A stretch of 64,000 nt of DNA from Peromyscus leucopus (Eukaryota > Chordata > Mammalia > Rodentia > Cricetidae): positions 7,715,231 through 7,779,230 of the forward strand of contig NC_051071.1 of NCBI RefSeq assembly GCF_004664715.2. Reading direction: 5' to 3'. The position numbers were made by a program, and so were the translations under genes. Numbering within the stretch: position 1 is the first letter of the stretch; every line of letters begins with the position of its first letter. The notes beneath the pieces were generated by a model. It did no database searches and was not told the origin of the DNA. It saw nothing but the letters and a program-made list of their open reading frames with translations. Below, one piece after another: positions 1,826 to 5,175 of this stretch.

Positions 1826-2321
1826 AGTTCATTTATTATTTAATTAATAAATTTATGTATTATTTTACATCCTAACCATAGTTTCTCTCCCTCCACTCCT
1901 CTAAATCCCTCTACCCATACCCCTCTGCATCCCCCACCATTCAATCCTCCTCTGCTTCTGTTGGGGCAGTCCTCAACAAAGCATGGCATATCAAGTTGTA
2001 GTAAGACTAAGCTCCTTCTCTTGTATTAAGGCTGAGAAAGGCAACCCAATATGAGGAATTGGTTCCCAAAGTTAGCCCAACTCCCACTGTTAAGAGTCAT
2101 GCAAGTAGACCAACTACACAACTGTCACATATATGTGGAAAGCTTAAGTCAGTCCCATGCAAACTCCTTGGATGTCAGTTCAGACTCTGTGAGCTCCTAT
2201 GAGCCAAGGTTAGTTGTTTCTGTAGGTTTTCTTGTGATGTCCTTGACCCATCTGCTTTATTACAATTCTTTGTCCCTCTCTTCAACAGGATTCCCAGACC
2301 TCAGTCTAATATTTGGTTGTG
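1826..2321 (-). mobile_element. 3' end of a second minus-strand L1, left of nested insertions
   Basis: Begins with a TTTATT-rich stretch (antisense of the L1 tail) followed by antisense 3' UTR with the landmark AAGGCAACCCAATATGAGGA. The UTR is broken at 2321 and resumes at 5176. The break holds a terminal-inverted-repeat element, which itself received the LTR element. Confidence 0.7.
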
Positions 2322-2324
2322 TGT

Positions 2325-2845
2325 TGTGGTGGTATTGTGTATTCTAATAAATTTATCTGGGGTCAGAGAACAGACAGCCACTAGATACAAAGGCTAGAAA
2401 ATGGTGGCACTCACACCTTTAATCCTAGCATTCCAGAGATAGAAATCCCTCTGGATCTCTGTGAGTTCAAGGCCACATTGGAAATAGCCAAGCATGGTGA
2501 CACACCTTTAATCCCAGAAAGCCAGCCTTTAATCCCAGGGAGTGGTGATAGCAGAAAGGTATATAAGGCGTGAGGACCAGAAACTAGAGGCTTTTGGCTA
2601 TTCAAGCTTTTGGCTGGTTAAACATGTGGCCTGGTTAAGCTTCAGGCTTTTGAGCAGTAATTCAGCTGAGACCAATTCCGGATGAGTACTCAGAGGCCTC
2701 CAGTCTGAGGAGACAAGACCAGCTGAGGATCCAGCGAGGTGAGATAGCTGTGGCTCGTTCTGTCTCTCTGATCTACCAGCATGGACCCCAATAACTCATC
2801 TCAGGTTTGATTTTATTAATAAGAACTTTTAAGATTCCTGCTACA
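2325..2845 (+). repeat. 5' LTR (521 bp, mys-like)
   Basis: Starts TGTGGTGG and ends CTGCTACA. It contains a TATA box (TATATAA, 2560-2566) and, upstream of it, two B1-like segments (about 2400-2480 and 2490-2545, each with CCTTTAATCC-type cores). It should act as promoter and enhancer for the element. It is identical to 4185-4705. Confidence 0.92.
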
Positions 2846-2847
2846 TC

Positions 2848-2865
2848 TGGCGCCCAACGTTCGTG
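2848..2865 (+). other. Primer binding site, tRNA-Lys type
   Basis: TGGCGCCCAACGT lies two bases after the 5' LTR. The first 13 bases match the site complementary to the 3' end of a lysine tRNA (Lys1,2 type); the following bases diverge. In retroviruses and LTR elements this is where the tRNA primes minus-strand DNA synthesis. Confidence 0.8.
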
Positions 2866-2930
2866 TTAAGAATTCATGAAAAAGCTGTTTGCCTGTGGCC
2901 TTGTGAGCCCCAGCTCAGGCCCAAGCTACA

Positions 2931-3035
2931 CTCAGCCGGTTGTGGTGGCGCACGCCGGTAGGATTTGCTGAAGGAGACAGAGGCAGTGGGATCTTGAGTT
3001 TGAGGCCGGCCTAGGAGGCTTGGGAGAAGCTTTGG
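2931..3035 (+). repeat. B1-like SINE segment inside the LTR element
   Basis: GTGGTGGCGCACGCC followed by AGACAGAGGCAG and TTTGAGGCCGGCCT are B1 landmarks in the right order, with a degraded middle. It lies between the primer binding site and the Tgfbr1 block, so it was part of the element when it last moved. Confidence 0.6.
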
Positions 3036-3057
3036 CCCGGACTGAGCCACAAACAGT

Positions 3058-3356
3058 GGTGGGACCATGGAAGCAGTGGCTACTGCTCCACGTTGCCAGC
3101 TCCTTCTCATCATGTTGGTGACTGCGGTGATGCTGCTACCTGGGACGAAGGGTTTACTGCTGCTGATTCAGAGAAGAATTGCCAGGACCATCGTGTTACA
3201 AGAAAGCATTGGCAAAGGTCAGTTTGGAAAAGTTTGGCAAGACAAATGGTGGGGAGAAATTGTTGTGAAGATTTTCTGTTCTAGGGAAGAATGTTCATGG
3301 TTCCGAGAGACAGACATTTATCAGACTATGATTGCTCCAAACCACAGAGGAGGCAC

Positions 3357-3385
<29 letters not shown>
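3058..3385 (+). pseudogene. Tgfbr1: Captured, internally deleted Tgfbr1 (ALK5) cDNA segment
   Basis: A reading frame opens at ATG 3067 in the context GGGACCATGG. Residues 1-29 resemble the Tgfbr1 signal peptide (hydrophobic, ending LLPGTKG). Residue 30 onward is the start of the kinase region: IARTIVLQESIGKG, glycine loop GKGQFG (49-54), ATP-type lysine K68 in VVKIF, helix-C glutamate E81 in FRETDIYQT. At residue 88 it jumps to IAPNHR, near the end of the activation segment, and then runs into 29 A residues (3357-3385). Ligand-binding domain, membrane helix, most of the GS region and most of the kinase are missing, so no kinase activity is expected. From memory of human TGFBR1, the first joint falls at the exon 1/exon 4 boundary and keeps frame; the second lies inside exons. 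Intronless, hence from mRNA. The frame ends near 3411. Confidence 0.85.
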
Positions 3386-3388
<3 letters not shown>

Positions 3389-3467
3389 TGCATGGAAACC
3401 ATGACCACACCTAACAGTGACTTTGAAATCTTCAAAAAGATGACAGGATCCACAAAGATGATTCCAC

Positions 3468-3749
3468 ATGGACTATGATAAAGCCATTAAGCCGATTAAC
3501 ACCATGGAAAAATCGACTTTGGACTACAAACTGGTCAGAACAATTTCAAGAGGACTAGTTGAGATGATCCAGCCTGACAGACTACTCAAACAAGGACTTG
3601 AAACAAACCCTGAACTTTCCTATTATGAAAAGACTGGACAAACGATACAGGACTTGATGATTAACCCCAAAATTTTCTTTTCAAGATTCCCTAAAGATAT
3701 CTTCACCCCTAGAAAGCAAAGAGAAAAAGAGAATATAGATATGAGATAG
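3468..3749 (+). other. Unidentified 93-codon frame in the LTR element
   Basis: A frame starting MDYDKAIKPINTMEKS and ending ENIDMR, rich in lysine and charged residues, with no signal peptide, membrane segment or motif I recognise. It sits between the A-tract and the tandem repeats. It could be a remnant of the parent retroelement, a second captured cellular segment, or chance. Confidence 0.3.
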
Positions 3750-3940
3750 ATCATCGAATCTACTCTGAGAAAAAAGATAAAGAAATAATAGGATAAATAG
3801 GTAGATCATTGAATCTACACTGAAGAAAAAGGGGAAGATATAAAAATGACAAAAGGTAGACTAATGAATCTATTATGAAAAGAAAAAAGAGAAAATATGA
3901 TATGATAAGATAAAAAGGGAGATTATGGAATCTACTTTTA
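3742..3940 (+). repeat. Degenerate tandem repeat, four copies of about 55-60 bp
   Basis: The core TAGATCATTGAATCTAC recurs with small changes near 3747, 3802, 3857 and 3918, each followed by a purine-rich GAAAAAA stretch. It lies in the 3' part of the internal region. Confidence 0.75.
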
Positions 3941-3988
3941 AAAAGGAACTACTTGTTTTAAATAAGATAAGTAATGAAAATTTTTTTG

Positions 3989-4110
3989 GTCTGAGTTTAT
4001 CAGATGTTACTGGACTGGACATTGTTAATATATATAATGGAGTTTTCTATCTGAATCTGTCAAATGTTAATGGACTAGACATCATTAATGTAATTTTTGT
4101 CTGTATATAT
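3989..4110 (+). repeat. Tandem repeat, two copies at 60-bp spacing
   Basis: The core ATGTTACTGGACTGGACAT at 4004 recurs as ATGTTAATGGACTAGACAT at 4064, with similar flanks. It lies just upstream of the polypurine tract. Confidence 0.75.
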
Positions 4111-4170
4111 TGTATATACTTATTAGATAGTTTTTCTTGTATTAGTTATAAGCTTTCTTTAATTTTAGAC

Positions 4171-4184
4171 AAAAAGAGAGGAGA
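4171..4184 (+). other. Polypurine tract
   Basis: AAAAAGAGAGGAGA directly precedes the 3' LTR. This is the expected plus-strand DNA primer of an LTR element. With the primer binding site it shows that the reverse-transcription signals are retained. Confidence 0.85.
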
Positions 4185-4705
4185 TGTGGTGGTATTGTGT
4201 ATTCTAATAAATTTATCTGGGGTCAGAGAACAGACAGCCACTAGATACAAAGGCTAGAAAATGGTGGCACTCACACCTTTAATCCTAGCATTCCAGAGAT
4301 AGAAATCCCTCTGGATCTCTGTGAGTTCAAGGCCACATTGGAAATAGCCAAGCATGGTGACACACCTTTAATCCCAGAAAGCCAGCCTTTAATCCCAGGG
4401 AGTGGTGATAGCAGAAAGGTATATAAGGCGTGAGGACCAGAAACTAGAGGCTTTTGGCTATTCAAGCTTTTGGCTGGTTAAACATGTGGCCTGGTTAAGC
4501 TTCAGGCTTTTGAGCAGTAATTCAGCTGAGACCAATTCCGGATGAGTACTCAGAGGCCTCCAGTCTGAGGAGACAAGACCAGCTGAGGATCCAGCGAGGT
4601 GAGATAGCTGTGGCTCGTTCTGTCTCTCTGATCTACCAGCATGGACCCCAATAACTCATCTCAGGTTTGATTTTATTAATAAGAACTTTTAAGATTCCTG
4701 CTACA
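4185..4705 (+). repeat. 3' LTR (521 bp)
   Basis: Identical to 2325-2845 in every line compared, including the TATA box (4420-4426). Followed directly by the right target duplication GTGTGT. Confidence 0.92.
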
Positions 4706-4708
4706 GTG

Positions 4709-5175
4709 TGTGGTGATATATTGTGTCCCCCAAAATACTGTATACTCTAATAAAGCTTATCTGAGGATCAGAGGAAAAAGTCAGCTACTATATTAAAAAT
4801 AGAAGTCAGGCAGTGGTAGCACACACCTTTTATCCTAGCATTTGGGAGGCAGAGATCCATCTGGATCTCTGTGAGATCAAGGCCACACTAGGGAACAGAA
4901 CCAGGCATGGTGACACACGCCTTTAATCCCAGCACTAACCATAGAGGTCTGGAGATCTGTACAACAGTCAGGAAGTGATGTAGCTAGGTGGAGAAAGAAA
5001 ATGAGATTGTAGAACATAAAGGCATATAGGTGTAGGTATACAGGAAGTAGGTCTCTTCGGAGACTGAGGCATCAGTAAGGTGAGGTTGGCTGTGGCTTTA
5101 CCTATTCCTCTAATCTCTCATACAAGCTTTATTAGGGTGCACAATATTTTGGGGGACACAATATATTTCACCACA
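4709..5175 (+). mobile_element. 467-bp element with about 50-bp terminal inverted repeats
   Basis: The left arm 4709-4758 (TGTGGTGATATATTGTG...AAGCTT) is the near-perfect reverse complement of the right arm 5124-5175, differing by a 2-base gap and about four substitutions. The arm resembles the start of the mys-like LTRs here. The interior has two B1-like stretches (about 4785-4880 and 4890-4940). Removing it and the LTR element restores L1 3' UTR continuity. It may be a foldback or MITE-like derivative of an LTR. Confidence 0.75.

Follow-up and report, generated by a model that had tools for sequence, protein, structure and literature searches.

How does an intronless piece of a cellular receptor gene come to lie between the long terminal repeats (LTRs) of a mobile element, and what has become of it there? 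This question is raised by a 64,000-nucleotide stretch of Peromyscus leucopus DNA (contig NC_051071.1, positions 7,715,231 to 7,779,230 of the forward strand; hereafter the window), in which the original prediction, made from the letters alone, placed a young LTR retrotransposon at 2319-4711 that had captured part of the TGF-beta receptor gene Tgfbr1. The body of this LTR element is spliced Tgfbr1 RNA, and we consider it rather probable that this RNA was captured once, by splicing of the Tgfbr1 exon 6 donor to a retroviral acceptor, and that the element was then spread by the proteins of another element.

The element is complete, and its end points had been placed correctly to within a few bases. 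Specifically, the two LTRs, at 2325-2845 and 4185-4705 on the plus strand (as are all further parts of the element given here), are identical at 521 of 521 bases and are flanked by the target-site duplication GTGTGT (2319-2324 and 4706-4711), a repeat of low complexity; a 6-7 bp duplication also flanks 16/16 other copies with full-length LTR pairs. A primer-binding site, TGGCGCCCAACGT, which we take to be of the tRNA-Lys type, is located at 2848-2860, and a polypurine tract, AAAAAGAGAGGAGA, at 4171-4184. The 1339-bp interior contains no gag, pro or pol, its longest frame encodes 115 amino acids (3067-3414), and the two frames that were scanned gave no Pfam match. Paired LTRs, target duplication, primer site and polypurine tract together identify a non-autonomous LTR retrotransposon or endogenous retrovirus (ERV). 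It may belong to class II (ERVK), to judge from a 6-7 bp duplication in 17/17 copies and the putative tRNA-Lys primer site, its interior holding no pol by which to classify it.

The intronless segment between the LTRs is Tgfbr1 sequence, as had been proposed. The frame at 3067-3414, which reads as the Tgfbr1 signal peptide, a truncated kinase N-lobe, IAPNHRGGT and a lysine run, has TGFBR1 as its top PDB match (E 9.9e-25), ahead of the best paralog BMPR1B (1.9e-18), and the sole place in the window that the TGFBR1 protein matches is the receptor block of the element. Host exons cut from the same genome align with this block at 160/185 bases for exon 4, 115/163 for exon 1 with its 5' untranslated region (5'UTR) and 29/31 for exon 6. 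The 5'UTR and exon 1, encoding the signal peptide, run to the exon 1 donor (3015-3151) and are followed directly by exon 4 (3152-3332), with exons 2 and 3 absent, and by the end of exon 6 (3331-3356, IAPNHR and onwards), a deletion having removed the remaining exon 4 together with exon 5 and most of exon 6. Intronless host mRNA inside a retroviral element is the mark of host-gene capture by a retrovirus. The Tgfbr1 gene itself is on contig C2 (exon 1 end near 58433756, exon 4 at 58477606, exon 5 at 58483339, exon 6 at 58483907, exon 7 at 58486241 and exon 8 at 58487633), and the window is on contig C9, so that the suggested LTR-driven RNA overlapping Tgfbr1 in sense orientation has no local counterpart. 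At window positions 3177-3220, 44 bases in a row are identical to host exon 4, and RNA or small-RNA reads could therefore map to both gene and element.

Older copies of the element retain more of the receptor RNA. In 40 older loci (two draws of 20), the order is a piece of a B1-type short interspersed element (SINE), 5'UTR and exon 1, exon 4, exon 5, exon 6 and a 3' module, with gaps or insertions in some. Exon 1 is found in 36/40 loci, exon 4 in 37/40 and exon 6 in 39, locus L068 lacking it. Exons 4 and 5 are contiguous within 6 bases in all 36 testable loci and exons 5 and 6 within 2 bases in all 38, whereas exons 2 and 3 have no match in 85 fetched loci, of which 76 match exons 4-6. The tail of exon 1, scored as at least 14 of 20 matching bases, directly adjoins exon 4 in 22 of the 33 loci that could be tested, the remaining 11 being more decayed or shifted. 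Host exons 1 and 4 have the same phase, so the exon-skipped product remains in frame. A probe of exons 7-9 gave 25 matches, two of which, at 96%, are Tgfbr1; the other 23, at no more than 82%, are taken for paralogous receptors. Joined to exons 4-5-6 with exons 2 and 3 absent, exon 1 identifies the source as a spliced, exon-skipped Tgfbr1 RNA.

With 27 fetched near-identical siblings, the window copy shares the loss of the rest of exon 4, all of exon 5 and the greater part of exon 6. Because older copies retain exons 4-5-6, the join of N-lobe to IAPNHR is a later deletion inside the element. The predicted order of signal peptide, N-lobe and IAPNHR is thus present, but its two joins differ in kind, the first arising from exon 1 to exon 4 skipping and the second from this deletion. 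The same IYQT-IAPNHR join occurs in several predicted proteins of Scotinomys, which belongs to Neotominae, and the deletion is therefore likely older than the Peromyscus-Scotinomys split.

The block is shared by a large multicopy family, which, by the original prediction, would show repeated mobilisation. The exon 1-exon 4 junction occurs at 1047 genome sites (538 + 509; reversed control 0), counted over the whole genome with a 30-mer at up to 3 mismatches, which includes damaged copies and misses more diverged ones. When 40 of 4072 first-look candidates for the interior were scored, 38, including the window copy, proved nearly full-length, with identities of 93-100%. Among 28 young loci, 22 have an LTR pair, 17 of them full length (0-5.3% different, with a 6-7 bp duplication in each) and 5 partial (0.2-6.3%), and 6 have none; a direct LTR-like pair is present in 12 of the 40 older loci at 6.6-17.9% difference, some being partial and LTR identity being checked for part of them. 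The two ranges of divergence indicate what seems a long history with recent insertions. In a tree of exon 4 (64 sequences, rooted on the host), the 28 young copies nest within 35 older ones. Taken together, the exon joins, the absence of exons 2 and 3 and the identical LTRs bear out the capture of spliced host Tgfbr1 RNA by a non-autonomous LTR element that has moved recently.

The 3' end of the receptor sequence coincides with a splice site. Exon 6 (157 bases) extends to at least base 145 in 38 of the 39 older loci that have it, and is alignable to its last bases (155-157) in 17. In five older copies (L012, L018, L024, L028 and L057), among the cleanest, the sequence reads AAAA[G/A]|TTTTCT at the exon 6 end with no intervening repeat, where the host has AAAAG|GTACAC; many other older copies carry A-runs, CA repeats or small changes at this seam. 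The A-run of the window copy (3357-3385) accordingly appears to behave as a simple repeat, by comparison among copies, and requires no explanation as a poly(A) tail. Beyond it begins the 3' module (3386-4184), which is not confined to elements carrying the receptor. Its start, TTTTCTGCAGTGAACCATGACC, occurs at 895 genome sites (control 0); nine of these, chosen from 100 listed, were read over 120-271 upstream bases, and none contains Tgfbr1 there. The nine relatives have two unrelated upstream types, four of type A and five of type B, both ending at the module start. Unrelated upstream sequences are thus joined to the 3' module at a common base, a boundary known to within a few bases because the search pattern itself sets where a match starts. 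Type B upstream sequences end in AG in four of five and CG in one, mostly as AAG, which is possibly a splice acceptor. We looked for the module as a cryptic exon of Tgfbr1 itself and rejected this candidate; host intron 6 (2181 bases) contains no module match longer than 28 bases. On contig C1, module starts lie in two same-strand pairs, 78377971 with 78385756 and 78505815 with 78514062, 7.8 and 8.2 kb apart, which are possibly tandem longer relatives.

The 5' boundary is of another kind. The element leader (2861-2934), common to sibling copies, is followed by bases 1-80 of a B1-like SINE (2935-3012), which are fused to the Tgfbr1 5'UTR; the score of the match to a B1 consensus was reached by 0/2000 shuffles. 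This arrangement may reflect a template switch via packaged B1 RNA. We propose the following course of events, which is drawn from sequence comparison. A provirus would have been located downstream of Tgfbr1 exon 6, and the exon 6 splice donor would have been joined to a retroviral splice acceptor; such splicing is likely, although not proven. The trapped Tgfbr1-virus transcript would then have been packaged, and near the 5' end of the mRNA reverse transcriptase would have switched, via B1 RNA, to a viral leader with its primer site. Mobilisation would have followed in trans, by the proteins of another element, since the 1339-bp interior has no frame longer than 115 amino acids. The shared junctions argue for a single capture.

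Several observations weigh against this account. In type A relatives the two bases preceding the shared boundary are GA or TA rather than AG, and exon 6 overlaps type B sequences in AAG, so that a template switch at this microhomology is permitted too. Host intron 6 contains a match, at 82% identity, to a 171-base stretch that precedes the module in relative L083. The node joining the young copies has a support of 0.32, and the tree leaves a single capture unproven because its root is the host. A search for a helper by its LTRs found none, the 40 best matches holding seven pairs, all 1.85-1.93 kb apart. The stretch shared with intron 6 (L083 positions 46-203, matching positions 4-174 of the fetched host intron 6 locus L072) is probably a dispersed repeat.

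The AAG overlap gives room for a route without splicing to the module, namely LTR-mediated retroposition by template switching only, in which the copying of a packaged Tgfbr1 mRNA would begin and end with a microhomology jump, and chance would have placed its end at the exon 6 boundary. The 5' junction does resemble such a jump, between the B1 SINE and the Tgfbr1 5'UTR, and jumps of this kind are treated in a review (PMC5408686, in the part consulted). At the 3' end, however, the receptor sequence stops on the exon 6 donor, and the module starts at an unchanged base where two other sequences lie upstream of it. We regard this route as conceivable but unlikely.

The A-run after exon 6 in the window and in some other copies recalls a second mode of origin, in which LINE-1 would have placed a separate processed Tgfbr1 copy, already fused to B1, within an element that was there before, the A-run being the tail of that copy. 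SINE-mRNA chimeras are a known LINE-1 product. Nevertheless, many older copies have CA repeats or no repeat at this variable seam, the copy stops at exon 6 rather than in the 3'UTR, and inspection by eye revealed no duplication flanking the block, the sequence before B1 not being repeated after exon 6. Among the nine relatives read, none joins leader and module without the Tgfbr1 block and with a duplication. The processed pseudogene that had been named as a possible refutation was thus rejected, and an insertion of this type is improbable.

The proposed capture by splicing at exon 6 leaves the question of what the receptor frame does. In 36 copies including the window copy, stops in the receptor frame (frame 0) number 2 against 9.2 expected (P 0.0035), and 1 against 7.2 in the first 28 copies alone; frames 1 and 2 are not depleted (9 against 10.1 and 7 against 8.4). 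The frame is open to IAPNHR in 25/28 first-drawn and 5/8 later-drawn copies, one of these five with a shifted middle. This scarcity of stops is a weak hint that the open frame has been kept. The case for a kept frame is lessened by other results: the eight later-drawn copies taken alone have 1 stop against 2.0 expected (P 0.38), with 3/8 frames broken; of the two stops, that in L080 alone truly breaks the frame, L045 remaining open; the test covers a single element family; and synonymous and replacement changes are both at the neutral expectation. Selection on the protein was considered and rejected, pN/pS (replacement to synonymous change) being 0.78 in frame 0 and 0.41 and 0.75 in the other frames. 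A selected small secreted TGF-beta receptor decoy, which the open frames, the depleted stops and matching predicted proteins in Scotinomys (92) and Neotoma (1) would favor, is therefore very improbable, because synonymous change is not in excess (40 against 38.1 expected), divergence from the host is similar across codon positions 1-3 (0.123, 0.126 and 0.142 in young and 0.106, 0.094 and 0.083 in old copies), the ligand-binding and transmembrane exons 2-3 are absent, and no Pfam domain is found at E 0.001. The decoy effect raised in the original prediction likewise gains no support from the comparison of replacement with synonymous change.

Most likely, the receptor piece acts as passenger RNA. 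The scarcity of stops suggests that a translatable first frame matters more than the protein made from it, perhaps by sparing full-length RNA from decay. We tentatively extend this to a broader proposal, which is plausible but more doubtful than the capture itself: the 3' module may be an exon-trapping acceptor that has repeatedly been fused to foreign exons, each fusion making a new non-autonomous family in which the trapped first frame must stay open for the survival and packaging of the RNA, and among such families the Tgfbr1 family would be the one with a nameable donor.

The element also appears among predicted proteins and has relatives elsewhere in the window. A search of predicted proteins, a biased sample in which absence from other taxa says little, gave 93 matches among 101 candidates (92 in Scotinomys teguina and 1 in Neotoma lepida), and a search seeded with the Neotoma protein added two Neotoma, two P. 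californicus and one P. leucopus protein among the best 120 of 772. The P. leucopus protein P0100, annotated as "TGF-beta receptor type-1-like, partial", is the sequence of an element locus (L015, C9:35050247 region), and P. californicus proteins P0097 and P0101 resemble it. Gene catalogues of Peromyscus mice may thus list element copies as receptors, and caution is due with receptor-like gene models and exon 4 RNA reads in these rodents, since either may stem from the element, which is identical to the host gene over as many as 44 consecutive bases. Within the window, the element lies beside an older repeat (4706-5175) whose inverted arms are 59 bases long and 83% complementary. A related LTR at 26370-26882, 77.7% identical to that of the element, is probably solo because no primer site lies behind it, and a second fragment related to the element LTR is found at 63038-63244. 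Frames at 30502-33747 resemble LINE-1 and retroviral pol remnants by eye.

The interiors of non-autonomous retroviral families can be of obscure origin; here the interior can be read almost to the base as a spliced host receptor RNA, which opens the origin of such families to testing and, in a mouse that is a reservoir of Lyme disease, marks a mobile family with a tag of host origin. In the one literature collection searched, we found no earlier report of a Tgfbr1-carrying Peromyscus retroelement. Acutely transforming retroviruses capture v-onc genes as spliced cellular mRNA in a defective retroviral genome, and the element resembles them in this respect; unlike them, it is a germline family with its junction at 1047 sites, its kinase is incomplete and its 3' junction lies at an exon end. 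It is also like LTR-mediated retroposition and maize Bs1, in which reverse transcription carries pieces of host mRNA between LTRs (PMC5408686). As far as the consulted part of that review goes, it covers retrocopies, with LINE-1-linked copying dominant in mammals, whereas here one captured mRNA is the body of a large mammalian element family. A further likeness in kind is to ETn/MusD and the mysTR-related ERVK families of deer mice, which likewise are multicopy LTR elements lacking coding genes, have a conserved region ahead of the 3' LTR and are presumed to be mobilised in trans (PMC10089650). According to the part of that paper available to us, the mysTR-related families are non-autonomous, with interiors seemingly replaced by non-homologous sequence, and share their greatest similarity between pro-pol and the 3' LTR. 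From this description, the 3' module could be that conserved region. The part of the paper available to us leaves the source of the new interiors unnamed, and the strings "tgf", "captured" and "transduc" do not occur in its main text, whereas in the element described here the interior is a named host mRNA with exon-exact joins.

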